Origin: Straminergon stramineum
Taxonomy: Eukaryota; Streptophyta; Bryopsida; Hypnales; Calliergonaceae
NCBI GenBank assembly: GCA_963920665.1
Contig: OY987265.1
Location: 43,033,001-43,097,000, forward strand
Length of the DNA: 64,000 bases
Direction of reading: 5' to 3'
In this document: piece by piece, positions 6,001-57,028 of the stretch
Position numbering within the stretch: position 1 is the first letter of the stretch
Layout of the letters: each line of letters starts with the position of its first letter
Position numbers and translations under genes: made by a program
Notes under the pieces: model-generated
What the model was told of the DNA's origin: nothing
Seen by the model: only the letters and a program-made list of their open reading frames with translations
Database searches by the model: none

Positions 6001-6860
6001 GAATGAGATCAACTCCTATGGAACTATATGCTTGGTAATTCTTTATTAAAACATGAGCAAAAGCAACCTACATATAACATAGCAACCGCTCTAACCTTTA
6101 TACAAATCCTATAGAGGGTAGCAATTGTGATTTATGAAGGTCTTCATCGAGCACACAAAAGTGAGATTTAGGAGTCTTCATTTTTGAAGTCATGGAAGCA
6201 TCAAGTATAGAAGAAACCCCCCCCTAGTATGTTGGATTTTCTCATCTAGATCTTCTATAATAAAAATTGGTCATTTAGCAATATAAAACAAATCTTGAGG
6301 GTTAAAAATTCCCTCTATTATGAAAAGCCAACACTAGTGTGCACAACTTAGAGAGGTCATTTTAGCCTTATCTAGAGTTCGAGGTTTATAAAGGCCTTAT
6401 GAAGAACATCCTAGAGTGAAGATTAGAGGACTTCATCTATAGGATCTTCAAAAGAATTAGACTTGGAGGAAGAAACCCAATAGTATCCTAAGATTGTACT
6501 ATAGAGAACCTCTATTAGGGGTTATTGTAATGTATGCAAAAAGAAAATTGATTCTTAAACGAGTTAGTGCCTGACCTTGACAAGAGCTTCAAATTCTTGC
6601 TTCTTGCACATGAGAGGAATATTGTTTGTCCCACAACTTATGTGGAAATTACACAGAAAAAATTTACTAATAATTTTAACTCTTCTTGTCTTCAAAACTC
6701 TAGATTCAACTTCGCATCAATCCTTACTTGAAAAGTGGACTTAAAAAGAGTTAGTATGATATCCAACAGTAGCAAAGAATTTCTTGAAAGAAGAGGCATC
6801 AATTTCAAATGAGGAAGCAAACCAAACAAAAAATAAAGGTAAATTTTTACAACAAAAAGA
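1..6860. other. Intergenic DNA, no supported gene
   Basis: The first 1.4 kb is somewhat richer in G+C than what follows and could be an untranslated or non-coding transcript end. Its short overlapping ORFs (about 860-1330) resemble nothing I recognise and have no convincing splice pattern. From 1.5 to 6.86 kb the DNA is AT-rich with only tiny ORFs. A short telomere-like run of two CCTAAAC-type units lies near 4104-4119. I see no RNA gene. Confidence 0.6.
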
Positions 6861-7089
6861 TTAACTCTTAAAGGATGGACTGGTAATTGTGGAAATCATC
6901 CTTTTTGGAACCATATGACATCATCTACTCTAAAAAACCCCAAATATTCATTGGAGGTCAAACTATTGTAAAAGATCTCCCCTTTCCACACAAAATTCCG
7001 AGGATGAATAGTTGCACTTTTGTCCCACACAAGAAGATACTCTATCTTCCATCCAACATTAAATGTCCGTGTCGATGTTTATGGGTTAA
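6861..7089 (+). mobile_element. TTAA-bounded MITE, copy A
   Basis: This 229 bp copy begins TTAACTCTTAAAGGA and ends ATGGGTTAA. Internal landmarks shared by the family are GTGGAAATCATC, GACATCATCTAC, TTGGAGGTCAAACTA, CCACACAAAATTCCGAGGATGAA (split here for length: CCACACAAAATTC then CGAGGATGAA) and TTGCACTTTTGTCC. TTAA is present at both ends. No transposase ORF fits, so it is a non-autonomous element. The 91-residue ORF inside it is not conserved between copies. Confidence 0.8.
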
Positions 7090-7239
7090 CATAACAATAG
7101 CGGCAATAGCAATCAAGACATGCATGAAAAACATTTTGAATTGGAATGCACATAAAACTTGAAACATACATTGGTAAAAGAACTACCTTACTTGCAATGA
7201 ATCGCTTGCAGTTCCAGATTCGCACCTACAGCTCTAAAA

Positions 7240-7272
7240 CCCCAACCCCCCAACCCCCCAACCCCCCAAAAC
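7240..7272 (+). repeat. AACCCCCC simple repeat
   Basis: Three or four units of a C-rich AACCCCCC-type repeat lie about 340 bp upstream of the DUF3531 start codon. The run resembles a degenerate telomere-type motif and sits in the presumed promoter. Confidence 0.7.
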
Positions 7273-7609
7273 AAAAACCCTCGCACGTGAAAATGCGCAT
7301 GTGAAAGCGGCCAAATATAGAAATCCCAGCTCGCGTAGCTCACTCCAAAACACTCACAAGTTCCAGCAAAACCCAGAGAGACTAGGCTACCTCACTCAAT
7401 GCCAAAGCTACTGTAGAACTTCTGATGAGGGGCCTTCAATCGTGGTATCCCCCTAAGACCGTCATTATCCGGCATCTCCGTCGTGCCGATGCCGAAACAG
7501 CGAATGAGTTTGGATTGCACTATCTTACACTGCGTCGCAAGTTTGCTGCATTTGTAGTTTCAAGCTCCTTTTACAAGGAATTCTGCGAGCATTATTAGGT
7601 TACTGGAAA

Positions 7610-10600
7610 GTGTTAGTGAGAGGTGTGGTGAGTATGCTGGGCTCTAAGGATTGCTGCACAGGAGGGGCGCTGTGTAGCAGCAATAGCGGATTGGAGCTCC
7701 TGAGGGGGCAGCCCCAATTGAAGAAGAGAGCTGCGAGGGTGAGGGTTGTGACGGCCGTGAACGTCAACGAGCAAGGAGGAGGTTCAAGGGAACGGAGTGC
7801 GGCCGTGAGTTCAGGGAAAGGCGCAAGAGAGAGACGATTGCAGAAAGTGGCGGAGGTGCGGAAGCGGAAACAGAATGAGGAGGATGGCAAGTATCCTGAG
7901 TGGGCGACGTAAACATCTTTGCCCTTTGGAATCCTGTTTTGGGTTGCACCTTTTTTCTGATTTTTTTTCAATTTGTATCATGGGTTTGTGTCATGGATTC
8001 TCCGGAATCCTAAGCCCTTAAACCCCAATGCTTGCGCGCTTTTGGCACTTATCTTGTGCTGGGCTAGCTAATCTTATGCTGGATTAGCATTGGTAACGCA
8101 CGTAAACAGCGCGTGTATAATGTTGCTGTCAAAATGAAGACGACGCTACCTGTTCTGTGAATTTGGCTCTTGAGGCTCTGGTCATCAAATTCCCAATGCG
8201 GATGGCAGTGTTCTCAATGGCGTTCTTGTATTTGAGAAAGGACATAAGAGCATTGGGGTTTAAGGAACTAGGATTATTAGGGTTTAAGGTTTAGGATTCC
8301 GGAGAAGAGTCGTGCGTTGTGTTCTGGCTGCGGGGTTTATTGAGGGTTTAAGGGAGAGGATACCATTTGCTTCGCTTTGAGCACTCCAAGCAATATGTAG
8401 GATGTGGTTTCATTGGAAGATCACTCAATAAAGCTCTCTGGAGAGATTGCTTGGTGCTACAAGGGCCAAACTCTCTTGAGACCAATTTTTTATCACTCAA
8501 TGTATTGGATGATTTCGAATGCAATTTTAAAGTGGGAGATTGTAGACCACTGCAAGTGGCAGTAGAAACCCCATTTCCATTCAAAGATGAGTGACCGTAG
8601 ATGTTTAGCTAAGCCATGCTTACACCAACTGAAGGCCAAGCAAGTGCTTAAACAGATGAATTGTTGTTGGTAACAGGGGTTAGTGTAGGTAACCGGATCA
8701 TTTCCGTAAGGGGTTTAGTACCTTAAGCTATTTGAATGATGTACAGGATTCTAGAGAATGCAACAAAGGACGATGTGGAACTACGGGAAATTATCGGAGA
8801 TGCTATTGGAAATCCAGAAGAGATGAGACGGCGAGTACGTTTGTTACTTCGTCTTTTCGCATCTTCAATATTTCCTTGTGAAGCTTCTGCCTGATATATT
8901 TAATTTCAAAGGGAGCCACTTGACTCGTTTGCAAAGAAGACTTGGTATATCATTCGAATTTGATGATGTCATTGATACAGGTGGAAGAAAGAGTCCGAAG
9001 AAAAGGCCGTGATGTTCTCCAAACAAAAACAGGATCAGCAACTCCGATGGTTGTATCTTTCCGGGAGTAAGTGAAGTATCACTACAATGTCTTCAGAATT
9101 TTCGTTATTAGAAAAATTATTCTGCTTCATGACTCGTCATTTAATGTAATAAACTAGTTTTGCGTTCTAAATTCCTGCTATTTTTCGGGACGTTGATGCA
9201 GTTTTGATTCCACGGATGATCACATCTGGATGGAGTTCTACGGCCCTCCTACAGACAAAGATGTAGAATTGATCGGAAGTGTATGTTCACTGCTACTTCA
9301 ATCTTTTAACACAGTCATGTTGAGAGGAAAAGATCACCATGATTTCATATAAGTGGGTGGTTGACGCACACTTGTCTCCTAATACTGAGACATAGTCAAT
9401 ATTGAGAGACACCTGCTGAGGTTGAAGATAAACTCTAAACTAGCCTCTGTATACACATCAAAAACAATCCGTCTTTACCGTACAGAATACGGTAACGAAG
9501 GATTGTGTTTGATGTGTTTATAGAGTCTACAGCTAATTCGTATTGATAAATGGAAGAGTAAGCGCTGAGGATAGCATTGATATTTGAGTGATTCTGGTTG
9601 ATATTCGAGTAGTTTATGTCACGATACTAATTTCTTTATTGCTCTTGCAGGTATTCCGGTCCTTTTTTGTGTTAGGCCGACTGGGTGGCTTCAATTCCAT
9701 GAATATGCAGGTTAGTTATTTCATCACTTCATTTGGATAATCTCACCTGTCCTATTGCAGAGATTCTTTGATGCTCTCAAATTCCATGGTTTACGTCTGT
9801 TACATCGCTTGCAGTTGGGAATTGCTGACAGAAATAACATTTTGATTGCGCTGTGGTAATGCGAGTTTTCACTTCTGTCAAGCATAAAAGTTTCTTTAAA
9901 TGGGATGCATAATAACATCATGCAAAATCCTTACTGGCATTATGATATTATTCTCTATGCTTACTCGCGATTCTGAAAGTGGTGGCAGATTGTTCAGTAT
10001 GCACATTGTGTACATTATTCGTCTCGTGGATAGGATGAATACTGAGTCCTCGGGCAGTAACAACCTTGACATCACACCATTAGTATTACATCAGGAAAGA
10101 AGGCCCTTGTCATTGTCATATGAAATTCATACGACATTAGTGGATGAAATTCAATTTTACACTAGATGCAAATTTTGCATGAACTTCATATTGATTGAAC
10201 GAGGGTTTCCGGGTTTTGGAAAAATTAAAAGCTAAGAATTCATAATGTTTTCTAGAATTGCGACTTTTTTAAAGTTTCAACTTCTACAAAGTCACTGAAA
10301 TTTTAATTAATATGAAAATCATATGAGTCATATGACGATCCTCTGAAAGCCGTATGATTTTTTTATTAGATTAGCATCTAGTGCAATATGAAATTGATTG
10401 GGGTGCGGGGGGATTTGAGATGATGCGAACCTGGCAATACAGTAGACAGCAACAGAATACTTACCTATTTTGTGAATTGTCTTGTAATCCAAGATAGTTA
10501 ACCCGACATGTGTTTGCATGCAGCTTACAAAACTTCCTTTAAATGCACCTCTCAACTATAGCACTGAGAAAGCTAAGGAGGCCTTAGATGCTTTTTTCCA

Positions 10601-11643: not shown

Positions 11644-12588
11644 TCAGGATTTTTTAGATAACTCTAATTGTTTCTCTAAAGTCAAGAAGCTATTCATAAG
11701 ATTGACTTTTTTCTCTTTGTAACTATTGTACTTAATATAGATTTCTTTCAACGCGTGTTTCAAAGTTGCATTTTCTTCTTTAGCTTTACAAAGTTGAGTA
11801 TTCAAATTATTGCAATTAGCACAACCATCCTTCTCTTCACTTTCATGGAGATCTTGTAAAGTTGATGTTGTGTTGTTTGGTTGTAGATCCGTCTTGTCTA
11901 ATTCATCTTCAAGATTTTCTTCAAGAATAACTGGAACTTCATATTCTTCATGCTCATGATTTGAATTTGGCTCTTCGGTTACTTCAAATCTTGGAGGGTG
12001 ATTTGAATTTGGCTCTCTAGGTACTTCAAATCCTGGAGGGAAATCTTGATCAACAATTGTATCTTGTTCCTTGTAATCTTCATGAACTTTTTCACATTCA
12101 TCTGCATTGTCCACTTTCCTTCGTTTTCTTGATAAGGTGGTATCTGGTTTTGTGAAATGACGTGGATTCGGACTCGCCCTTGAAAACTCACTGCTTTCTA
12201 CTGAAGGTTGTCTAGACCTATCTGATGCAGTTGGAGCTCGATCATCTCTTTGAATTTCATATTTGGATTTGTTGAAGGACATTCTATGTTCACGGTTACT
12301 TGCATGCCGTAATTCCGGTGATTGTGATGAATGCCTACGAGCCTTTGAAGATGATCTCAAATAGTCTCCATGAGAGTCATCGTATCTTCTCATATAGCAC
12401 TCACCTGTGATAATGTCAAATTTAATATTCCTGTTTCTGGATTCAGGCCTACGATGAAATTGATCATTGTCACGTAGTTCGTGAGTACCATGTGCAAACT
12501 TGCAATCTTGTCCCTTTGGACATGGGCGACACGCTTTCCAATGTTTACACAATTCTACTTTAAACCTAATATGAGACATATGAGACAT
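11644..12588 (-). CDS. CCCH zinc-finger protein, intronless ORF
   Basis: The ORF encodes 314 residues from the Met of MSHMSHIRFKVELCKHW; an upstream in-frame Met at 12642 is less likely because the added segment is hydrophobic and AT-rich. Near the N-terminus is one finger of spacing C-x8-C-x5-C-x3-H (LCKHW...CPKGQDCKFAHG...ELR), as in RNA-binding CCCH proteins. The middle is Arg/Ser-rich with a basic KRRK cluster, then an acidic part with a short internal repeat (FEVPREPNSNH / FEVTEEPNSNH). The C-terminal 70 residues look like a coiled coil rich in K, E, L and N. Plant proteins with this order (finger, RS-like, coil) are nuclear RNA-binding candidates. A perfect-looking donor (ACAG/GTGAGT) inside the ORF and the lack of a visible promoter leave open a retrocopy or a missing 5' exon ending before an ATTAG acceptor. 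Confidence 0.6.
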   Translation of the reverse strand: MSHMSHIRFKVELCKHWKACRPCPKGQDCKFAHGTHELRDNDQFHRRPESRNRNIKFDIITGECYMRRYDDSHGDYLRSSSKARRHSSQSPELRHASNREHRMSFNKSKYEIQRDDRAPTASDRSRQPSVESSEFSRASPNPRHFTKPDTTLSRKRRKVDNADECEKVHEDYKEQDTIVDQDFPPGFEVPREPNSNHPPRFEVTEEPNSNHEHEEYEVPVILEENLEDELDKTDLQPNNTTSTLQDLHESEEKDGCANCNNLNTQLCKAKEENATLKHALKEIYIKYNSYKEKKVNLMNSFLTLEKQLELSKKS

Positions 12589-12642
12589 TATTGCAGACTG
12601 TATTTTAATACCAATGAATATAATAAAATTGACGTGAAACAA

Positions 12643-15600
12643 AGTGCTTGAAGCTTTTGTAAATGGTTATGACAAAATGAAAAAAAAGTATAAAAAGAAA
12701 TATTGGATCTAAAAAATGATGCCAAAAAATATAATAAAACTGAAGTGAAATGAAGTACGACAATTTCCTAATTTCATACTATATATATAAGTGATTGCTA
12801 TGAGTAAAATTAAAGGAAAAGATAAAGGAAAAGTTGAATGTAATGTAAAAGTAGAAAAAATAAATGTAAAAGAACAAATGTAGAATGTAAAAGAACAAAC
12901 TTAGAATGTAAAAGTATGAAATTCTAGCAACTAAATGCATTTTGATGCTTGATAAAACCTTTGCAAAATTTGTTTGAGACGCAATTGACTATGAAATCAG
13001 ACGGAGCATTATGTAAATGTGGAGTGTTCACAAATTTCTACCAAATTTGCTACAAAACATTTTGAATACCAATGTCAAATTCGAAGTTTTAGCAGAGTTT
13101 TTATCAACTTGAGCAAATATTTGGGATCATTGTTGGGAACAATTTTGCTCTTACACTGAATTTCTAGTACGTGAAGGAAGTGGAAGAACTCATGGTAATG
13201 TAGAGGCTACATTGACCCTATAACACCATTGTGTACACTAGGTGTCCAATGGATGATAGAAATCCTTCTATGTAAACTAGAAGTGCCACTATTCATCCTT
13301 GGAATTTTGTGCAAAACGGGGAGGTCTTGAACACTAGTTTGACCTCCAATGAATGATTTGGATGTTTTTAAGTAGATGGTTTGCATTGTATCAAAAAGGA
13401 TGATTTTCCATGGTGACCAATTTTTCCTTACATGGCTAAGCATACGATACATCATTTAGAGGTTCCAGGGACCATACATGTGATATTTGCTTTTTGCTAA
13501 GTGTGAAAATATTTACTCTAGTGACATTTAGTTTTTTGCAATTGTTTTTTAGCTTAACCAAAAAATGAAAGGGCAAAAAAAATTAAGATGGTAAAAGTGT
13601 TCTAGATTGTTATAGAAAAAGGTTTAAAGTTTGATTGGATGGTAAATGGAGACTCTCCCTTACTTGTTTGTGCTCTCTAGATGATGGGATTCAATATATG
13701 GTTTAACTGGGTGCATGCTACAAATATGTGATTGATTAGCTACAATTGTGTTTCAACCACCCAACTCCATCTCCTTTGAGATACCTATCTAAAAGTAGAC
13801 ACACATGAAGAAGCACAATCCCTCCATCTCAAAGAGTCAAATCAATGAGTTTCTTGTTGAAAATTTATACTAAAATAGCAATACAAACTAAAGGACAAGC
13901 TTCAATTCCCCTTGCAACACACGTAGGAGTCACTAGTACAAATCTCCCATGGGTTGAATGATTTGGTGTTAAAACTGACTCAAATTGTGTTGAAACTATT
14001 GTAGAGTTAACACAAATTCACCACTTCAACATTTTATTCCATTGAGAATGAATGTTGACAGCAAAAACAACTACATCAAAAAAATGCATGTTGATGTTAC
14101 ACTTCAAACTCATGCAAGGCACTAAAAGTATAGAGTTTTGCACAACACATTGTCATGACATATATCAACCAAGCAAAAGACTACACACTCAAAATTCCCT
14201 CTTTGCCTCATTACAAAGAATGCAACTATCCATCATAACTTGTGACCCTTCACATAATCTAGGACTTTCCCACCATGCCAAATCTAAATTTCCAATGCCC
14301 ATCCCTATCAGTGCTACAAAAGAGCCATGATGCCAAATGGTTTGTCAAGTGAAGATGGTTGTTTAGACATACCTAATTGAAACCTTGGATGTTGAATCTA
14401 TACTCTCTTATCAAATGGCCTAATTGATAGCTACCAAGGGTGTTTGTAAGTTTCAAAAAGAGGCCTTTGTAGGTGGAAACACCTTGCTCAAGGCTTGAGT
14501 CTCATGTTCTATAACTTGGAGTACCTTATTCAAGGCTTAATATTCCATACAATAGATTACTCGTTACATAAGAATTTTTGTAGACCCCCTAGAGTGCACT
14601 TTTCTAAGGTCACTTATGTAGCTTTGCTTGTGACTTGCCCCAATTCTTTACTATGAAATTGGCTTCCCTTACATGATGACCACATATCCATAATACTATA
14701 TTAAGTTGATTTTATTCCAAAATTACTCACTTGCGAGAATGTGTAAATGGCCCTTTAGTCTATCAAGGCTACTAACAACATTCTTTGTTCAAAACTTGAT
14801 GATTAAATTACATGTCCAGAAGTGGAATGTACAAGGCATTAATTGATGGAAGACAAGGTTAACACTTGAAAATTGCTCGACTCATGTTATTGATCTTATG
14901 TTTAGAATTATTCAAAGTTGTTACTATTAGCTAACTCAAGAAGGCTTGCATAATTCTAATTGGAATTAATTGTTAAGGTTCCTGAATTGGGAAGATGAAA
15001 CTCATATGCGTTACAATGCACAATTATGTGTAATGGAGATCAACTTTGTGCATGCAACAATAGACTTTGTTGGACGCCTTAGAGTCATCAGTACATACAT
15101 CCAATGCCAAATGTTCTTAAGTCCTAAAACTACCAAAGTGAGAGAGAGAGACATCCAATTGTGCATTCTACCAGACTATACTCTTTATAGATAGACAACC
15201 ACTAATAGTTCAATGATCTACAACCTCTAGTAGATTCTCACCTTGATATGTGCATTTACAAAATGGTGTTAGGTAAAGAAGACTACAACCAAAGACTTAA
15301 GGCATCAGAGATTGCATAAAACAAAGGATTCTATGATATTTTTAGTAATAGACAGGGCATTACTTGCTAGTAACAATACAAAATTTTGAAAAATATGAAT
15401 AATTTTTTAGATAATTTTTATTGAGGTTACAAGGGAAAGTTGGTAAAGAACTACTTTTGGCCATAGACTAGCTCTAAAATTGAGGTGGAAGAACCCCATA
15501 ATCAAATCAGTGTACACTTGTTGTAGATGCAACAACCTAACAATCCACAAAATTTGTTCTAAAGAGAAGCAAATTGGATCAAAAGAATTAACTATTTGTT

Positions 15601-30500: not shown

Positions 30501-31382
30501 CATGGGTGTCAGCCAAAACATACGATGCCACGTGGCACATTTAAAAAAATAGAAGAGATAGCCATTTGGGGTTGAATCTACTCCAACACTCTGCATATTA
30601 ACCATGTGCATTTTAGGGCACCTATGCATACTAGTGACATTAAAAAGGTGAAAAGTGTATTGCATCCAATATTTCTGCAATAATTCAGCTGTTCACTGAC
30701 ACTTGGAACTACGTGGCAAAAGCCAAGTCAGATTGCCCGGCCTGCCACCTGTCTTACCCTCATTCCACGTGTAACCCATTCTTCCACGTGTCAGAAGGTC
30801 CAGCTTCAAGTCACCAATTCCACACCACAAACTTCGAAATTTCAATCTAACGGCTGAAATTACTTCAAACCAAAATCTGACGGATCCAAAACTCCCGATA
30901 ACTCAGAATGAGTCTCCGTCTGCCGCCCCGACCGACACTTCTCGCCATTAACATCTAACGGCTCTGAACGGCCTTATGTCAGATCGGACGATACCAGTGA
31001 TCAGTAATTAGTATCTTACCACTTACCACTCACTAGTAACTTTCAACGCTCCTCCGAGCCAGCGCTTCGAAGTTGCCGCAGCTTTGATGAGGTCTCCAGT
31101 TTGCGAATTCGCCTGTTTCCACTGCCATTTGCAAGTACTTGACCTTTCTATATGATTGCCAGTAGCCAGGGTCTTCTGGTTTGTTATTAGATTTCGGATT
31201 TCCAAGTTTTCGCACGAATTTCTTGGTATTAGGGTTTGCAGAAATCACTGCATCCAAAGACTTAGTCTCGTGTTTGCAAACATTTTGAGAATCTTGAAGC
31301 TTCGTGACGAGCTTTAGCCTCGTAGTTTTTGTGGTTTGGTGAGTTTGTGAGTTGTGCAAGAGTTTTGAGAGCGTTCTTGGCG
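30500..31382 (+). promoter_or_regulatory. RabC upstream region with ACGTG boxes
   Basis: Four ACGTG-core sites lie within 270 bp: GCCACGTGGC at 30527-30536, TACGTGGC at 30710-30717, CCACGTGTAA at 30765-30774 and CCACGTGTCA at 30784-30793. These match the G-box/ABRE class bound by plant bZIP factors. CTAACGGCT (Myb-type core) occurs twice, near 30848 and 30956. Binding is inference from motif alone. The transcript start is probably between 31000 and 31320. Confidence 0.45.
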
Positions 31383-32018
31383 ATGGCGGGATCAGGGGGT
31401 GATTTCGACCAACTGTTCAAAGTGTTGTTGGTCGGCGACTCCGGCGTCGGCAAGAGCAGTTTACTCCTCCGCTTCACCGCAGACACGTTCGATGACCTCT
31501 CGCCCACCATCGGGGTGGACTTCAAGGTGAAGATGATGACCCTTGGTGGTAAAAGGTTGAAGCTCACGATCTGGGACACAGCAGGGCAAGAGCGGTTCCG
31601 AACCCTCACGAGCTCCTATTACAGAGGCGCGCAAGGGATCATCCTGGTGTACGACGTCTCCCGGCGTGCCACTTTCACGGATTTGTCCGACGTGTGGCTG
31701 AAAGAGGTGGAGCGATACTCCACTAACGAGGATTGCATCAAGATGCTGATCGGGAACAAGGTGGACTTGGAGGAGCATGAACGTGTAGTGACGAAGAAGG
31801 AAGGGATTGCGTTCGCACGGCAGCACGGGTGTTTGTTTCTGGAGGCCAGTGCTAAGACGAGCATCAACGTGCAACGGTGTTTTGATGAGCTCGTGCAAAA
31901 GATTCTTGACACGCCGAGCTTGACTGCGGACACCTCGCAATTGAAGAAGAATGTGCTCAGACCGGGGGAGACTGCGGACTTGCCGGCACCTAATGCTGGC
32001 GATGGCTGCGGATGTTAA
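31383..32018 (+). CDS. RABC: RabC (Rab18-type) small GTPase
   Basis: This single-exon gene encodes 211 residues. All G-motifs are intact: GDSGVGKS (18-25), effector threonine in [21 protein letters not shown] (63-71), NKVD (124-127) and EASAK (153-157). The switch region and the [14 protein letters not shown] stretch assign it to RabC/Rab18, which in plants acts on endomembranes and lipid-droplet-related traffic. The C-terminus ends CGC, a double-geranylgeranylation signal. The ATG at 31383 was chosen over an in-frame Met 18 codons upstream because [18 protein letters not shown] is the normal family start. It converges with the receptor kinase gene, about 1.2 kb between the stop codons. A long antisense ORF across it is a shadow of its GC-rich codons. 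Confidence 0.95.
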
Positions 32019-33248: not shown

Positions 33249-36200
33249 TCACGAGGGATTACTACTAGTTGGATCTTCAGGTGTCTGCAAATCTGACCAT
33301 TCCTCGTTGTGTCCATATTCTACAGCGTGCAAGGACTTGGAATACTCTAGTTTTACAACAGGTTGCAGATCATTATCTGCAATCGTTTCACTCCCGAGAA
33401 GCATTAGGATGGCTCGAGGAGTGGTAGGTCGTAGATCAGGGTTATCTAGTGTGCACAGAAGCGCTGTCTTAAGTGACCTCAATGCCTGGTCTTTGTCAAA
33501 AGAGCCATCTAACCTCGAGTCTACAAGGTTCAGCAAAACCTGGTCATCGCCTTCCGTTTGAGACTGTTTATACATGCACCGAACCTGCATGAATTAAGAA
33601 ATCGTTAACCAATACTGACACACTTAGCCAATTCATCTTGTTAGCAGATATCAAAATTGAATTCAGCAAATTGAAAGAATTCAGGTACTGGAAGGCATCT
33701 CAGGCTGAGACTACGGAGAAAAAAGATCAAATGGCAAAATCAGATCCATAACTTGAGAGGCGATATACAACACATTCGGATCCCCCGGCAAGGTGAGCGC
33801 TTACCCTGTCAACGAGGAAAAGCAACGATCCTGAAGGAGTCCGCTTCATATTCAATTCACCAGTAATAATTTCCATCAATACCACCCCGAAGCTGTAAAC
33901 GTCTACCTTCTCTGTCAGTAGGCCTCGAGTAACGTACTCAGGTGCAACATATCCTCTGTAATGGCCAGTTCCACCATCGGACAAAAATCGTGTGAGGAAA
34001 TCTAGACGCGTTCTTCCAAGCGCTAATCAATCTTCGATCATGAAGGAAACATGAAGGTCCATTTAGTAGACCTGTTTCTGTGCTCAATAGATGTTTGGAT
34101 AAATGTTCAAAAGAAAAATCTATGAGGTTCAAGGGTTGTAAGAAAACGTACAACGTGCCAGCAACATTAGTCGTGAAGTGAGACTGTTCCTCTGGAAACA
34201 ATTTGGCAATCCCAAAATCAGCGATTTTGGCTTCAAGATTACGATCCAGAAGAACATTGCTAGCCTTGATGTCTCTGTGTATGATTCTGGGTGTGACCTC
34301 GAAATGCAGATAGGCCAGTCCTCGTGCAGTTCCCAGGGCGATGTTGAAGCGAGTTTGCCAATTAATATCTATTGCTTCCTTTGGACCACCTGTCACAACA
34401 AACCTCGGTGCAATGAATGCAACGGTAGGGCTCAATTGAAGGCACGCTCCTTATTGATGGAAATGAAGGCGTACCAACATAGGGAGCATCTAATATTGGA
34501 AGCACGTTATGATCACACATAATGAGTCTTAAGATTCACTTTTCAAAATATCTCATACAACATTTACCAGTTAAGAAGGTAGTTGTCTCACCAAGAAGCG
34601 ATTGACGAAGACTTCTGTTCTCAAGATATTCGTAGACCAGCAATCGGTGAAGTTTCTCTACACAGCATCCCCGCAACTTCACAAGATTTCGATGCTGGAC
34701 TCGGCTTATGACTGTCACCTCGTTTAAGAACTCACGTGCTCCTTGCTTCGAATCCGCTGATAGCTTCTTCACAGCAACCACTGAGCCGTCCTTGAGCTTC
34801 CCCTGACATATAGACAATTCAGTTTGAACTAAAGAAAAGAGAAATTAATTCCACCTAAATACACGCAAGGAACAGAGGCAGAGAATTTGTCACGGTTTCA
34901 AAAGGTTCAATTTCCCTTGATATGAAGCTTCATACAGACAACTTCTCGTCTACAGGAATACCAAGTTCTTGGGAAATAAATGAGTAATAACTTAAAAATA
35001 ATTATATGTACCAAAGCAAGCGATTTTTTTATTATTCATCAGATTCCTTACCAGATAGACTTCTCCAAAGCCACCTTCACCCAACTTTTCGTCCTTGTGA
35101 AACTTCTTAGTTGCAGACTTCAACTCCTTGTAAGTGTATTGGTTCGTTGAGATGGACTGCCTTGCAAAATCTGAAAGAGAAAACAACTTTGTAAGCGAAT
35201 AATACTGCTTAATGGTGAGTATCTAATAGGCCCTTGTTCCTCCGCCACTGCAATTGTGAAGATAAAACAATGCACGACCATGAAATCCTGAAACAAATCC
35301 ATAAACAGGTGTTCATGTCTTACCTTCTTTAGTTTCTCGAATGGAGGTCCGAGCGGCTTTTTTCCTCAAAAGGAAGTATGCTGAAACGATGGCGATTACA
35401 ACAATGGGGCCAGGCAAGATAGAGGCTAACAACATGTTTGTGAGTTCTCTTTTGGGAGGGTCTATAAATGCACAATTATCGCAACACAGGTTCTTCAAGT
35501 AGGTAATTCTTGGCGATTCGTTTCCGCCCAGATTTTTGGGGCAAAGGGCTTGATCGTGCCATTGCACAGGCTTGGTACACTTGCTAAGGTTGACCTGAGG
35601 TAGGACATAACAGAACCACCGAAAGAGGCACAATGAGAATGCAGTTCGCGGCAAACATTACAGGCTAGAAACCAGTAGACATTGCTTAAAACTATCTGTT
35701 AGGAGTAAAACTGCTACAAGACGATTCAAGTACTTAACCTGAATCATTTGACAGGGTAGTGGAATGCTGGCGACGTTTGCATCAATCAATCTCCGGTGGA
35801 TAGCACTTGCAGTTTCAGTTGAATTCACTATCACATCTATACCCGCTACTCCATAGAGAACTCCTTCATTGATAACTGTACAACAAAAGCAACAAAAATT
35901 CACTTCCGCTGTGTACAGTAGTATTCTTTCGAGGCTTTGTAATTAATATACTTGTTTCATGCCTTATTATTAGGCAGCCCTCAATATCTCGATGAAAGCA
36001 AGTATGCTATGTGAAGATATTGTTTTATTCTTGAAAACATGGTCTATAGCAGAAGGACAACAACTAACCTGGATAAGAAGCAGTTGAAACCTTCCCTAAT
36101 CCATCGAAGTCCTCATATATATCCGTCCAGAACGTTCTGTTTGCTGTGATTCTCAACGTCGCTTGATAGTCGAAATAAGGGCGCATGGCCCAAAGCGGAT

Positions 36201-39131
36201 TCCGTTGTGCATCCAATAGGCTGACATAGTTGACGGTGCTATTCATTAGGCATGACAAACTACGGAGCTCTGTAAGTAGATCAGGTGCATTTTTCGTGTC
36301 ATCTCCCAGGCTAAAAAAGAATACAATCACATTTTCCAAGCTGAGCGATGTGACCATCCGTTGAAGAGCCGAATCATTGAAGGCAGTACTCTTTGCGAAA
36401 TTTCCGTCGGTCAGCACTAGGATCATCTGTTGAGGACATACAGAGAGGGAAGGAAAAAAATCTTTAATATAATTACCATAAACGTCCAAACTTAAGTAGA
36501 TTTCTGTAACACGATATCGAACTTTTGTGATTCACCATCAGACACAGAGTGCAGCATACCTTGAGGATACTGGTCGAGTTGAAGGCTGTTCTTGCTTTCT
36601 CGAATCCACTCGTTATGTTCGAGAACCCGTGTTGCCCGTTCGTCAACGATGTAATTTTAAAGGTGGATATCAGGTCAGGACTTTCTTCTATTCCACCCAC
36701 CCCAACAACCACCTGCAGTTCCATGTGCAGAGAAATGAAAGCACATTATTTGTCTACAAATCCTGAAAGGGTTTGCAATTTGTCACTACTGCAGCTCATA
36801 CAGCAGAAGAACTAATGTGGTATCAACAGGATGATGAAGAGGAAAAGGTGCCGGAATTACGGATGTTGGTTGCAGCAAAGTTGCTCGAGTGGAGTCGAAT
36901 GTAATCAAGTTGATGCGGTCAGAGGGCCGAAATGTACCAAATAGGTCTTGAATGACGATCTTGGAATGCATGAAAGTAGAATCATCTACTTGCCCTGTAT
37001 CGAGAAGCACAACAAGGTCCTTTACAACTGATACTGCTGTAATATACCTGCACAATGTTATTCTAATAAATCAAGATGTGAAGGAATATGGTCTAGCTCA
37101 CGAGGGGCCCATAATTAGACAGAAAATCTCTATGAAATATGGGAATGAAAAAATCCTCAAAAGAGATCTCTAATGGAATTCTGCATCAACCTAAATTTCT
37201 ATATCAGTCTTCCGTTACGCTTGTGGGATTCCACGCCGGAGGAATATGACACTCCAAAATAAGTGTTCAGGCTTGAAACCACAATACGCCGACAAAGAAC
37301 ATTTCCTCACAAGTGGGATTGCAAGGATTACTTAGGAACTTGCAGAGATAAACCGGCGACAGAACAAGATCCAACCATATGAACCATTGCGGCTCACTGC
37401 TAGTTAAACACAGTTCCAGAAATGTAGACGAAACCCTATCATGCTGTTATAACTATGGGCTCATAACACGGCTATGGCAAAAACTGCAGGCCTCTCGGCG
37501 GTCGCATTACATTACCAGGGCCGTTTCCGAGGGTCGTACTCGATGCAACCCTTGTCTGGATCACACTCCTGATTTCAATAAACAAGAACTCAGCTTTAGT
37601 ACTCGATGAAGCAGCTGCACGGATTTCCTCTCCACAGGCAACGTTCCTTCCGACTGTACATAATTCATAGAAAGAAATTACTCTCAAACCTAAAAGGAGG
37701 TTCAAATTGAGCTGCCCAAGTACATACTCGACCAGGGTAACCTCGCCATGCGCCCTCAGCAGATCCATAGTAATTCCAAAAAGTAAGTTCTGAGGAAATG
37801 GATTCACTGCTAGCAGAAAATTGAAGATTGGTTTGAGCGCAGATTGATCTCGTAAGCTCTGGACTCAGGTCTGAAAAATTCTGGAATTGTGGAGGAACGC
37901 TGCAACCACAGAAAATTACTCGACAAGGTCAGCAAGATATCAATAGAGACTGGATGTCGATGTATCCGCCAAGAAAAAGGATACTAGACAAGACAAGACA
38001 ACCAGGTAGCGTGTCGCAGAAGTTGAGATCACATCGAGTCTCCCAGTATGAAGAAGATTTCGATCGGAATTTCGTGGCCAAGGCCTACCACGTTTCTGAC
38101 TGTGACCTCTATGTTGCCTCAGTCCCCTCAACCTCCTCTCAGAAATTGAATTCTGCATACTCGAAGGCGATTTTTCGCATAGATGACAATAAGTACGCAT
38201 CTACTAATAGTACATATAGGATTCCAGAGATGCCTCAAGATGTAGATGTTCCATTATTACGCCAGGTTTTCATCTTTTACGACTGTGGCAGCATTGAGCT
38301 AAAATCGAATGATCACGAGGTGATCGTTTACTCATGTCATAATTCAATCCTCGAGCCTCGAGATTCTACCAGAAAAGGACCGACTTCAATTCGGACTTGG
38401 GATTGTAAAGGAAAGCCTCATATCAGAAGTTGATATATTTCTTCAATCAGTTTGATTGTCCACTCGACCAACAACGTGCATCGTTGAACAAAGAGACTCA
38501 CGCTTGCCTAAAGCCTTTTCTCAACAGTCCAATTTTACATATCATATTTCAGAGTAAGAGCAGAAGAGTCGCTCACCGCACAAAGCCATTTCTGGTGAAA
38601 TCCACCTTTAAGTTCTCGCATGGCGCACTCCTATTGATGGAACTCGTACAGTCTGCGACATTACTGGGAGCTTTGATACAGGTGAACTTGTCTTTGGTTG
38701 TTGGCGAACAAGAATGACGGGAACATTTGTCAACACAATTTGACAAACCTGCATGCCCACATATTTCACGGAATGATATACCATAAACCTAAAATTCAAA
38801 GGAAGGATCAAAGGAAAAATTATATATAATGTGCAGTAACATGTGCAAATTTTCCCATACATGAAGAAAGGAGAAAAAGCAAGAATTGAAGGAACAATAT
38901 AGAGAACCGATGAGGATATTTACCGCAATCGGTTGACTCCGCTGCAAGTTGCAAGAACAGAGCATGGCGGGAGAGGAGCTGGACTTTATGTTCCTTGTCG
39001 TTGAGAAAATTATCTACCTCAAGGACTGTGCAGTTGCCACAAGAGCTGAGTTGTCCTGCTGCAGGTTTTATAATGATCCACGACACCAGCAGTAGCAACA
39101 TAAAACCACAAGGCGAACCGAACTCCTCCAT
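33249..39131 (-). CDS. Receptor-like kinase with alpha2-delta-like VWA-Cache ectodomain
   Basis: Exons on the minus strand: 39131-38924, 38748-38606, 37880-37728, 37568-37516, 37047-36861, 36712-36560, 36426-36069, 35875-35739, 35594-35324, 35170-35052, 34802-34592, 34389-34152, 33955-33805 and 33584-33249, giving about 905 residues. Order of parts: signal peptide (1-26); Cys-rich segment (about 30-117); [16 protein letters not shown] and [10 protein letters not shown] (178-187), as in the VWA-N region of calcium-channel alpha2-delta; VWA with a degenerate metal site DTGQV (202-206) and LTDG (304-307); Cache-like [12 protein letters not shown] (399-410) and [10 protein letters not shown] (423-432); juxtamembrane Cys cluster; membrane helix (about 517-540); kinase with [21 protein letters not shown] (702-709), DFG (722-724) and LGYVAPEY. 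All catalytic residues are present; it is an RD kinase of DLSV type. The exon 3 start is uncertain: a stronger acceptor at 37899 would need an extra small exon in the preceding intron. Confidence 0.85.
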
Positions 39132-51754: not shown

Positions 51755-54700
51755 TTAGAGTGATTCGGTAAACATATCTACAGTAGTAATGTCTACATCA
51801 CTACAATCTACAGTTGGTTTTGTGGGGTCTTGATTAACCGGTCTATTAGACTTGCCTTTATTTCTTCGAGATTTTCGAGATTTCTTGCCTCCTGAATTGG
51901 AAGCATCTTGCAATTGGCTGGACTCCCATGTCCTAAGGCGGTCAGCAACAGCAGTGTGTTTGTACCTTTTGGCAACATCGACAGCACGAAATCCATAAGA
52001 ATTTGGAACATCCAACGACGCTCCCGCACTAAGTAGTCTGTCAATGAACCAAACAGAGCCCTTCTGGGCAGCTATATGGAGTGCCGTCTGTCCATATCGA
52101 TTCTGCCTATTTAGCAATCTAAGCAACTGCTGTGACAATGACATTGCGTTTAAATCCTCGGCTATTACTACACAAGACAAAGTCCCTCCATGTGAGGGCG
52201 CTGCCTTCAAGTCGGCAGGCAAGGAAACAATAGCATCATGAGAGTCATTGTCGCTGGGATCCTTCAACTTATCGGCCTCTGCGAAGATTGTTGAGTCCGC
52301 AGATATTAAAGGCTGGTCTTTCTGGGCAACATCCAACCCCAACTCAGATCCCGCAGCCCTGAGTAACATCTCTCCCACATTTTGGCGATCCGCGACCGTT
52401 GCTGCCATGAGAGGAGTCCATCCATCACCTGCCATAATCAAGATTGACTTGAATAAAACTTTCACAAATATATACATAAACCAAATTCCAATTAACGTAT
52501 CGATATATAAAGAATCACAAGAAAGTAAGAAAGAAAAGCTGACAGGCCAAGGGATTACAAGCTTGCTCAGCCCTATTAGGAAGCCTGTCGCCCTCCACAA
52601 CACAAATTAAAGCGGGAGCCAGGACAGCTAATTTCCGAAGATCAAATTCTAATAGACTTGGTCCACCCTTTCTATGAAAATCAAAGGTTTAGTTGACTGC
52701 ACGATAATCCTGACAAATTTAGTGAGTAATCTAATCCATCTAAGTGGCCACAACCCAGAATGCAACAAGAAAGTAGAGTTTCTCTCAAAAAGAGAAACAT
52801 GCTATAAAAATCTATAGGTGTTTGTAATCATGACGGTTCAAGTTCCATATTAACACACCGAATACTTACCGAGGTTGGCCACTCAAGTGCAATTAGATAT
52901 GAGATTTGAGGGTAAGTAATCTATCTCCAACCTGACTCCCATGTGAGGCACTATTGGCCGGCTCCCATAGGCGGGAAAAACATCCGCTCCCAGGTTTGGC
53001 CTGTAAGCTCTGACATGGGAGTCCAATTCCAGAGTACATTTTTAAAGGTCTTCGAGAAAAATTCCGGCCTCCGAAAGAAGGAACAATGTGAGGAAGAAGG
53101 GGCATACCATATACATCAGCATCCTGCCAGTTTACCCCACGCTCATGGCAGTGAGCTAGCATGATGCCTACAGCTGCAGAATGCCCTTTCAAGGCTGCAA
53201 TGTAGAGGGGAGTCTCGCCTGCTCTATTGCTGGCCAGTACATCAGCTCCGCCCTGTAAAAGAAGCTCACACGCCTGTGCGTATCCAGACTCAGCTGCCAC
53301 AAAAAGGGCCGTGCTCCCTGATGAGTCCTTCATCCCAACTGCCACAGCACCTATTGCTAGAAGGCCAGCAATCATGGGCACATCACCACGAGCAGCAGCC
53401 ATGTGTAATGGCGTTCTCTTTCGGACATCAGAACAGTTAGCTGCTCCACGCAGGCCAAAAGCAACATCCTTCGTCGAAGATTCCCATTTGTCCTCATTCT
53501 GGGGAAAATTCAAAAGGGAGGCCAACTTGACACTAGCATTGAAGTTTGTGTATGCAAAAGATCCAGAACCTAAACAATCAGACAAAGTCAACCCATCTTG
53601 CCAAAATTGAGCCCTCATGCTTTTACTGAATAAAACCGGAGAGACAGGAGTAGTCTCTCGTCCTGGCGGGCTGTTTAAACCGTGTACGGGGGTCGCAATA
53701 TGCCGCAATATGTCATCAACAGCACTTCCAGGCTTGACCTTTTTCAAACCATCAAGGACCCAGGCCGCTGCTGCCACAGAACTCTCCTCACAAAGATCCC
53801 AGATTTGAATTTTTCTCCTATCCTGCGCTCTGTTGCATCATATAGAATGAATTCTCAGCAAAGTTGTTGAAAATTGCCAAGAATATGCAACGCAAGATAT
53901 CCAAGAAATCACAAAAACTTTTACAATCATCATTCTCCATCACTATGCATGCACTTCCTGAGCATCAGATCAACATGAATTTAACTTAGGTCAGCACCCA
54001 ACACAAAAATCAATAATAATCAAAACACTAATGCATATTGCAATCCGAACCGCTCACCTTACTGCTTGAACAACTGCAGTAGTAAAGAATGTCAATTCGA
54101 GCACTCGCAGCCTCGGAAGAAGCTCAATTATTCTAACTAACGTTGATGCCGTTGAAGAAATTGTATCCTCGGACACAGACTCAACCCTACTAAGCCCTAG
54201 AGCTTGTACAGATCCGCCCAAAAGTAGAAGCTCAAGATGGGGACATAGCATGGCCTGCAAAAGCGACCAATGTAACTTGTGATGACCGTCACATACTCGT
54301 TTAACAGAAAGACTGGAATTTAAATATATTTTGGCTATCTAAGTCTTCTTACTATTCAGCAAATTTCGCATAACAAATGAGATACTTTCGATATTAACCG
54401 ACTAATAAGAATTCTAATAATTGCAAGAAATCAGTCATAAGTTATTATGATTCAAAACTTGACAAAGTAGTACACAAGCCAAGGCATTTCCAACTAGGGA
54501 TAATCAAACGGCCCCTATCTATAACATGATCATGCCTGTAATTGTCGCATAAATATAAAAAGAAGAAACTGAATTGACAATACCACAGATGTAAGATTGG
54601 AAGCAGTGAGACCAGCACAATTGTTAAGTGCAAGAATTCGTAGCCCAGATCCATTGTTTAAGCTCCCCAAACTCCTTGCAAGATCACCGTCATCCCGAGT

Positions 54701-56932
54701 CACATCATTCTCACATTCGTAGACTCCAGTGTGTATAACAGACGAGTCGTCCTGAGGAAATTCTAAGTTATCTATATGACTAAGCAAAAGGCTCCGCAAT
54801 CTTGAACCATCGGCTGTAGAGGCAACAAGGAGGTTCGCAGTTGATGAAGACCCCAAACCAAAACACCTCTGAAGACTTAAGCTAATTGGGCCAGACTTCA
54901 CTGAAGTTGCAAGCACATCTGCAACAGCGCCAGTTCTGTACAAGAAAACCAGAGCACACATCATCGGAAGGTGTCAAGCCCTAGCTTTCAAGCTTGCGGA
55001 AAGATCGCTCTTCACCAGAATAAACACAAGTAAACGCTCACACCAGAATGATGAATTGCAAGTCCTGGCTTGCATGCTCAAGTAATAGTTGATGCTCGTC
55101 TTTACAAAACCAAAGCAGGCTAACTCCCACAACAAGATCTTGACCACGGCAACGGCACGTCATATGTAGAAGCAGCATATTATACGCAAATATCATCTGA
55201 AGGAAGAGTGGATTACAATTTCTGGCAATTGTCCAGGATGAGGCGCTCCAAACAACGCAAATTTGACAAAATCGCAGCCACATCGTCATCCCCAATGAAG
55301 CACCCAGCCAAATCAAGTTCCTGAGTCGCGCACATGTGTATTCGAATTGCACCCAACGCATCCCGAATCCAAGAACCTGCTGTCTGAGGAGTAACTCTGC
55401 CACTGCAAAGTTGGGAAACAACACTAATTAGTAAATGCCTCACAAAAAATACTTCGGGCATGATCAACAGAAGGTTGGTCAGTAGATAATGATATTGGTC
55501 AGCATAAGGACGGTTGACGGTGAATTCTTTTTTACGTACTTCAATCAAGCAATTCCAATAGACGTTTGCGCAACTTGGAGAACTGAATTCATCGCGAGAA
55601 AAACAAGATAATTCCAAACGTCTGATAAATGTAAAAGTGCAGGTCTCAGGAAGTTTGACAATCAATACCATGAAAAAACTTACAGCACCATGTATACTCA
55701 ATTTCCACATAGCTTAAAGCAACCGATTTTCTCATAGGCTTCTAGTTCATCTCGAAATTCGATTTCCAATAAATAGCGCATAAATCGAATCAACGTAAAA
55801 TTCCAGAAATTGATTGCAACCCTGCAATATAATAAGAGCAAGGAAAGTCTTTGACAAACAAATTCCAGATACCCGACACGGAAAGGATAGTATAAAATTT
55901 TCATTTGTTAATTAGAGGGAAACTAAAGTATATAGCCACATTTCTTGGACCCAATGGGCGTCAAAGTGAATGAAATTAATTAGTATTCTAGCACAGGAAA
56001 TTCAACAAAAGAATAAAATGATCATCGCATTCCTTCTCATACCCACACCAGTTCATTAGGCAAGTTCTATTCAAGTGCCCAAAAGCCACAATTCCTACAC
56101 AACAAGTCAACTTGAAGGTATTTAATGCTACATCAGCTCTCTACTAAGTTCTTGTCAACTGGAAAGACCAATATTTCATTCAAAGCGAGAGAAGGGTAAA
56201 ACGCGGAAAATTTTATTTTTACATAGGTACATTTTGACCAAAACACAAGAACCGTGTTTGTATCTTAGCATTGCAGTGCACTGACGTACTCTAGGGATAA
56301 TACGACGTGCGGGTAAATGTGGAATGATCCTGTTCTGGCTGGGAAATTTAGGAATCAAGCATTTCAGAGGACACTATTTGTATTCGTATATCTCTCAAAA
56401 CAACCAATCGCACTTTTCACTGGAGCTAGCAACGTCAATATAGTTATATTGACACAATTCAAAGCACCAAAATTGTGACATTCAATCGCACAAAGCTCAA
56501 GAAACTAGGACTGGACTAGATTTTCGTTTCCAGGCGTAAATCAGAGAAAGTACCAATATCGTGAATTCTTGCCAATATAACGAATTTGGCGTTCAGCACA
56601 AGTGTAGAGGAATAGAGAAAATTAAGCAGAACAACGTATGCATACCTATTCGGTGGCGTGTCGTCGCAATTTGCAGCAGGTATCTCATCAAACTGGCGAG
56701 GTCGCAAGCGGAGGCGAAATGGAGCAGTGCGAACAAGAAAACAGAAGAGGCGGCATGTGCATAGAGTAGCCATCACATCCACGGGATCCACCAGGTGTGC
56801 CATTATTGAAGCCAACACAACAGCAGGAAGGTCGGTAATATGAGTACCATAGTTACCATCATCTCCAGCCATTAAAGCAAGCCTCAATCCCGCAGACGGC
56901 TCCAAAGCGCCAACTGTTGCAGACTCGTCCAT
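51755..56932 (-). CDS. F-box, leucine-rich and ankyrin repeat protein
   Basis: Minus-strand exons: 56932-56646, 55621-55540, 55383-55217, 54935-54587, 54254-54058, 53817-53108 and 52428-51755, giving 821 residues. An F-box-like segment lies at about 31-75 (THITDLPAVVLASIMAHL...CRLFCFLVRTAPFRLRL). LRR-type text follows at about 96-360: ELDLAGC, CLERLILDNCQKL, ISLSLQRCFGL, LRILALNNCAGLTASNL, HLELLLLGG, RLRVLEL. Five ankyrin units follow from about residue 494 (KRTPLHMAAARGD, GSTALFVAAESGY, GETPLYIAALKGH, GWTPLMAATVADR, GQTALHIAAQKGS). The C-terminus has a basic nuclear-localisation-like run (GGKKSRKSRRNKGK). An F-box would make it an SCF ubiquitin-ligase substrate adaptor using LRR and ankyrin surfaces; this is inference. 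Exon 2 start and exon 3 start were chosen because they alone keep the LRR frame open. Confidence 0.8.
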
Positions 56933-57028
56933 GCCGCTCTCAATTTTTCGAAGATTTCCACGCAGAGTTTTTAAACCCTAAAACTCAACGAATTAGGGCT
57001 TGGCCATTCTTGCTCCTAAATCCTAAAT

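Follow-up and report, generated by a model that had tools for sequence, protein, structure and literature searches.

The window analysed here, a 64,000-nucleotide stretch of Straminergon stramineum DNA (assembly GCA_963920665.1, contig OY987265.1, positions 43,033,001 to 43,097,000 of the forward strand), carries on its minus strand a gene for a receptor-like kinase (RLK). Judged by sequence and modelled fold, the ectodomain is homologous to the first Cache unit, the one that contains VWA, of the animal calcium-channel subunit alpha2-delta. We describe the gene, its relatives and its putative ligand pocket, and we propose a function for the encoded receptor.

Gene structure

Fourteen exons, running from 39131 down to 33249 on the minus strand, form one spliced open reading frame (ORF) that encodes a single 921-residue protein. 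These bounds, already given by the initial annotation, correspond exactly to the start and stop codons. All 13 introns are of the GT-AG type with consistent phases, and the exon joints match the alignment of homologues. No second copy of the gene was found in the window by tblastn of the protein. The features, all on the minus strand, are as follows.

33249..39131: whole receptor kinase gene, 14 exons, 921 residues (spliced ORF, homologue alignment)
38924..39131: exon 1, signal peptide (about residues 1-26) and N-terminal helix region (spliced ORF, hydrophobicity)
38577..38748: exon 2, Cys-rich block (spliced ORF, homologue alignment)
37728..37899: exon 3, first Cache half, including an 18-residue stretch (spliced ORF, alpha2-delta-1 comparison)
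37516..37568: exon 4, YDPRKRPW, the Y-R-W portion of the amino-acid motif (spliced ORF, alignment)
36861..37047: exon 5, final motif Tyr followed by the beginning of the VWA domain (DTGQV, a degenerate metal-ion-dependent adhesion site, MIDAS) (spliced ORF, Pfam, alignment)
36560..36712: exon 6, middle of VWA (spliced ORF)
36069..36426: exon 7, end of VWA (LTDG) and start of the second Cache half (12-residue motif) (spliced ORF, profile alignment)
35739..35875: exon 8, second Cache half, 11-residue stretch with motif Asp448 (spliced ORF, alignment)
35324..35594: exon 9, Cys-rich CC.C stalk, membrane helix (about residues 531-557) and juxtamembrane region (spliced ORF, hydrophobicity)
33805..35170 overall (35170-35052, 34802-34592, 34389-34152, 33955-33805): exons 10-13, kinase domain with HRD and DFG (Pkinase and BAK1 matches)
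33249..33584: exon 14, end of the kinase C-lobe and C-terminal tail (spliced ORF)

Every ectodomain motif named by the initial annotation is present, in the order it gave, within this one reading frame: the YGSAEG..R.YPG block starts at residue 171 (37769), YDPRKRPWY spans residues 195-203 (37538..37044) with its Trp codon split by an intron, the VWA domain starts at about residue 212 (37019) and reaches LTDG at 320-323 (36414-36403), and the two later motifs lie at residues 415-426 (36129-36094, 12 residues) and 439-448 (35864-35835, 10 residues). The 12 most hydrophobic windows form just two stretches, at about residues 3-26 (signal peptide) and 531-557 (membrane helix), the latter separated from Asp448 by about 85 residues. 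As had also been claimed, this helix joins the ectodomain to a complete RD-type kinase at residues 594-853 with its motifs intact.

Ectodomain and kinase are one gene, because the introns are in phase, the ORF is single and both halves occur together in 12 protein clusters. Five of these clusters are unbroken ORFs of 716-945 residues on contigs of 2.8-4.7 kb, which look like spliced transcripts. The alternative that two adjacent genes, one for the ectodomain and one for the kinase, were wrongly merged is refuted by the homologues, and we assign it a vanishingly small probability: besides the 12 clusters, five of them on transcript-sized contigs, exon 9 alone encodes stalk, membrane helix and juxtamembrane region in one open frame, the ectodomain and kinase trees are congruent, and the exon blocks of the two halves adjoin at both paralogous loci described below (L075 and L076).

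Ectodomain and metal site

The relationship to alpha2-delta is most evident when the two proteins are compared directly: phmmer against alpha2-delta-1 gave an E-value of 1.1e-9 and a profile comparison 1.5e-19, far stronger signals than those obtained with generic Pfam profiles. The VWA_2 profile matches residues 214-323 of the focal protein with E 3.9e-5, scoring 24.7 bits where the cut-off is 27. MCP-like_PDC_1, a profile of the PDC/Cache type, is found in all seven family ectodomains scanned (best 1.4e-4) and gives 0.16 on the focal one (12.8 bits, cut-off 27), while VWA_N is weakly matched in three of the seven (best 0.056). PF02743 (dCache_1) matches the more distant relatives P0014 (3.7e-7) and P0016 (1.2e-8), in both cases under the curated cut-off of 45 bits. 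A search for VWA_N across the moss's own genome returned 0 matches, but the positive control likewise matched in 0 of 14 genomes, so that this absence carries no information.

The animal-like layout put forward by the initial annotation holds for the VWA-containing first Cache unit, by sequence and by fold, but not for the whole subunit: only that unit of alpha2-delta was matched, Pfam found neither further Cache units nor the VGCC_alpha2 region in the focal protein, and the MIDAS is degenerate. The CC.C stalk resembles alpha2-delta-1 residues 972-1002 weakly (-2.7 bits), and we do not claim homology there. With a model of the orthologue P0001, whose mean predicted local distance difference test (pLDDT) score is 51, only the second of two aligners placed alpha2-delta first; the 50 matches listed by Foldseek were all kinases. 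The second model (mean pLDDT 58) is of a kinase-free relative, P0015, rather than of a moss protein.

In the VWA domain, the DxSxS signature is replaced by DTGQV in the focal protein and by DxGx(V/Q/E/A) in 12/12 aligned proteins, with Gly as the second MIDAS residue in each; metal-dependent binding is therefore unlikely. The first MIDAS Asp and the Asp of LTDG are retained in the same 12.

Amino-acid pocket

The published amino-acid motif consists of Y, R, W and Y ahead of the VWA domain followed by Y and D behind it, and Arg241 and Asp491 of alpha2-delta-1 are reported to matter for gabapentin action (PMC9901441). In the bacterial chemoreceptor PctA, the corresponding residues include Y121 and R126, whose Arg bonds the carboxylate of the ligand (PMC10104139). 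All six motif residues are present in the focal protein (Y195, R200, W202, Y203, Y419 and D448), Y195 and R200 being spaced as Y121 and R126 are in PctA. It is worth noting that the motif is printed as YxxxRxWY (PMC9901441), one residue short of the spacing implied by the numbering Y236/R241 and Y121/R126; the focal protein, with four residues between Y and R, fits the numbering. Stepwise alignments equate alpha2-delta-1 Asp491 with Asp413 of P0015 and Asp448 of the focal protein. Of the 12 residues listed for mirogabalin (PMC11308618), eight are identical: W205, Y236, R241, W243, Y450, D452, T461 and D491.

The six residues are also identical in the kinase-free relatives P0014, P0015 and P0016, which are 35, 27 and 22% identical overall; the hypergeometric p values for these identities (1.5e-3, 3e-4 and 1e-4, respectively) are optimistic because the alignment was partly anchored on the same six residues. 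Among the focal protein and the 11 other kinases covering all positions, eight keep the full motif (focal, P0001, P0002, P0004, P0005, P0006, P0008 and P0013), and these are all the covering proteins of subfamilies A and B; the partial P0003 and P0012 keep the positions that they cover. In subfamily C (P0007, P0009, P0010 and P0011), Gln replaces the pocket Arg and the kinase HRD has become HGD in 4/4. These paired changes (Arg to Gln, RD to non-RD) lie on one branch and could be a coincidence.

Kinase

The Pfam protein kinase profile matches residues 594-853 (E 3.3e-48), and BAK1 is matched with E 2.9e-70. The catalytic Lys, HRD, DFG and APE are all intact, and with its signal peptide, one membrane helix and a cytosolic RLK-type kinase the protein belongs to the RLK/Pelle group. 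The Pfam scan listed no leucine-rich repeat, lectin, LysM or malectin profile for it. We rejected the label of L-type lectin receptor kinase, under which Physcomitrium patens P0005 is filed at source, for want of a legume lectin ectodomain profile; a lectin profile is absent from the focal protein, from the seven family ectodomains (that of P0005 included) and from six further proteins scanned.

Family and paralogues

Searching 5.8 billion proteins with the ectodomain as query (7994 candidates scored) yielded 11 clusters, each with a kinase profile. A profile search gave four matches among 6276 candidates and added P0012, a fragment of 324 residues. A search with P0008 (7994 candidates scored) gave 13 matches including itself, ten of which are receptor kinases, adding P. 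patens PHYPA_001229 (P0013) and bringing the clusters with both halves to the total of 12, although P0003 holds part of the ectodomain only. The remaining three, which refine the initial annotation in that the ectodomain also exists apart from this kinase, are P0014 (EukProt, 6e-30), P0015 (JGI/Logan, 4e-18) and P0016 (an alpha2-delta-like sponge protein, 4e-16). Receptor kinases from named species come from Ceratodon purpureus (P0001, P0004, P0006 and P0010) and P. patens (P0002, P0005 and P0013), and it is on these homologues that the assignment to mosses rests; the three protein searches, which reach only proteins sharing exact words, returned no such kinase from a named non-moss. The closest named orthologue, P0001, is Ceratodon KC19_VG339300, which lies on a 110.5-Mb contig and whose V-prefixed locus tag suggests the male sex chromosome of Ceratodon.

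Trees of the ectodomain (15 rows, the partial P0003 and P0012 being omitted) and of the kinase (13 rows) give the same three subfamilies, with support in the ectodomain and then the kinase tree of 97/100 and 100/100 for A, 100/100 and 100/98 for B, and 100/99 and 100/99 for C. The focal gene falls in subfamily A, and P0014-P0016 sit on long branches. When the moss's own 326-Mb genome was searched with P0008, 48 places were scored, mostly other kinases, and ectodomain exons were found on C7 and C5. The locus on C7 (L075) is a subfamily-B gene with exon blocks that, by eye, are mostly like the focal ones. That on C5 (L076, 10548000-10557900) also belongs to subfamily B; two of its exons contain in-frame stops, and it is possibly a pseudogene. 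At neither locus did we see the intron at 37048-37515 that separates exons 4 and 5 within the Trp codon of YDPRKRPWY; both have one open block there.

Prokaryotic relatives

When prokaryote genomes were scanned with the aligned sequences of P0015, P0014, P0012 and P0016, at least 54 relatives were confirmed among at least 590 stretches; ORFs were inspected in three of the 54, their domains being labelled by eye rather than by profile. A planctomycete locus (L021, Planctomycetota, 2761-7978) holds a run of three same-strand ORFs, in this order: a 631-residue VWA-split Cache protein, a Cache-like protein and a Ser/Thr-kinase-like protein. A VWA-Cache and Cache-like pair resembling the first two is found in a member of the Hodarchaeota (L022), an Asgard lineage; there the listed VWA-Cache ORF begins inside the VWA domain and the match starts further upstream. 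The third (L024, Lentisphaeria, 1261-3567) encodes a kinase-like protein whose extracytoplasmic Cache carries the amino-acid motif, has contiguous halves and lacks a VWA; it seems to have arisen as a separate fusion of Cache to kinase. From these layouts the VWA domain looks like an insertion into a Cache domain, and the coupling of such a Cache to a Ser/Thr kinase appears to occur in bacteria as well. That the VWA-Cache unit is found in the sponge record, in P0014 and P0015, in a planctomycete and in an archaeon of the Hodarchaeota bears on the source of the unit in animal calcium channels.

Neighbouring genes

A Rab-type small GTPase ORF (31326-32015, plus strand; Ras profile, E 4e-57) lies tail to tail with the receptor gene. 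Elsewhere in the window are ankyrin-repeat ORFs (51758-53837, minus strand) that probably make up a single gene, an F-box-like ORF under its cut-off (56519-56977, minus strand) and a CCCH zinc-finger ORF (11647-12666, minus strand).

Proposed function and alternatives

We propose, as a somewhat probable reading, that the protein is a moss plasma-membrane receptor kinase that carries an alpha2-delta-type, VWA-inserted Cache domain outside the cell and senses an amino acid or a related small molecule. The analysis established gene structure, topology, kinase motifs, homology and fold class, and showed that the amino-acid motif is conserved; ligand type, closure of the Cache domain, signalling through stalk and helix, and kinase activation we infer. 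The predicted ligand of the Cache pocket is a free amino acid, or a small molecule related to one; Arg200 would hold its carboxylate and Asp448 its amine, with Tyr195, Trp202, Tyr203 and Tyr419 surrounding it. Closure of the pocket would be relayed through the Cys-rich stalk and the single membrane helix, and the RD kinase would be activated, probably by dimerisation or by a co-receptor. The VWA insert is more likely a protein-partner or structural module than a classical MIDAS. We put forward more tentatively, and with less conviction, that the moss family as a whole directly senses extracellular amino acids through a gabapentin-type Cache pocket, and that in one subfamily the pocket (Arg to Gln) and the kinase (RD to non-RD) have both been adapted to another ligand and output.

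Several observations weigh against amino-acid sensing. VWA_N and dCache_1, profiles whose failure to match the initial annotation had itself held to speak against its proposal, gave no match in the focal protein at E ≤ 1 (whole protein) or E ≤ 10 (ectodomain), and of these the missing dCache_1 bears on the present reading. Only a single Cache unit is recognisable ahead of the Cys-rich stalk, whereas amino-acid dCache receptors have a second lobe. The P0001 model, built with 11 sequences, has the mean pLDDT given above, the motif p values are optimistic, and the motif is identical in relatives of unspecified ligand as well. Pocket-side residues have also changed relative to human alpha2-delta-1 (V207 to Tyr, Y217 to Gly and L454 to Asp), and W223 is not alignable.

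The last of these points, in particular the Asp at the L454 position and the Gly at the Y217 position, would suit a small-molecule receptor for something other than a free amino acid, such as a betaine, an amine, an amino-acid conjugate or a short peptide. So would the Gln at the Arg position in subfamily C, Gln being the nearest equivalent reported in the betaine receptor PacA (PMC10104139); the focal protein, however, keeps the equivalents of the carboxylate-holding Arg and of the gabapentin-relevant Asp, and we regard such a ligand as rather improbable. Somewhat less remote, though still unlikely in our view, is a receptor concerned chiefly with protein contact, in which a cell-surface partner or an ion channel is bound by surfaces of VWA and Cache, as in alpha2-delta and CACHD1, the kinase reports the contact, and the pocket is structural or holds a constitutive cofactor. 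In alpha2-delta, the VWA domain has been described as one that mediates protein interaction (PMC9901441), CACHD1 is reported to modulate channels despite a disrupted MIDAS (PMC6231325), and the two retained Asp residues of the VWA domain are in keeping with such a role, but the DxGx(V/Q/E/A) sequence makes metal-dependent binding unlikely, and the small-molecule motif is identical in 8/8 covering proteins of subfamilies A and B. A decaying ectodomain, or pseudoreceptor, could be suspected from the in-frame stops of L076 and the pocket residues lost in subfamily C; it is very improbable for the focal gene, which is entirely open, and pocket and kinase catalytic residues are intact in subfamilies A and B where covered, the record of P0002 lacking the HRD-DFG stretch.

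Comparison with known systems

A survey of Cache domains describes them in plants and fungi as limited to histidine kinases (PMC4822843). In line with the initial annotation, which knew of no plant receptor kinase family with this ectodomain, we found no description of the class in the literature searched; as far as those searches reach, it is an RLK, a known kind of protein, with an ectodomain class new to plants. The family places an alpha2-delta-type Cache domain on a plant receptor kinase in mosses, which suggests that plants have a class of small-molecule receptors, for amino acids for example, that has gone unstudied. Should the pocket behave like its animal and bacterial counterparts, this would be a directly testable receptor kinase for extracellular amino acids or amino-acid-like molecules, for which gabapentinoids are ready probes; P. 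patens is readily gene-targeted.

Among the nearest known likenesses is alpha2-delta-1 (CACNA2D1), which resembles the moss protein in the VWA domain within Cache, the motif order, the Y-R-W-Y...Y...D pocket, sequence (the E-value of 1.5e-19 above) and fold. CACHD1 is alike in its Cache-inserted VWA, motif order and fold, and a disrupted MIDAS has been reported for it (PMC6231325). Unlike either, the moss protein has no extra Cache units that we could find; in place of the delta part and glycosylphosphatidylinositol anchor of alpha2-delta it has a single membrane helix and a plant kinase, and its MIDAS is degenerate, whereas alpha2-delta-1 and -2 have an intact DxSxS. P0014 and P0015 share with it an N-terminal hydrophobic stretch, a Cys-rich block, a VWA-split Cache with the full motif, a CC.C stalk and a membrane helix, but end in a short cytoplasmic tail without kinase; P0015 retains a DISGS MIDAS, and the record of P0014 lacks part of the VWA domain. 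The bacterial dCache chemoreceptors PctA and PctB have the amino-acid motif in common with it and weak sequence similarity around the motif, and the moss protein differs from them by its VWA insert, its eukaryotic kinase output and the lack of a recognisable second Cache lobe. With BAK1, BRI1 and SymRK of the RLK/Pelle group it shares a single-pass topology and an RD kinase, and from these it is set apart by its ectodomain.

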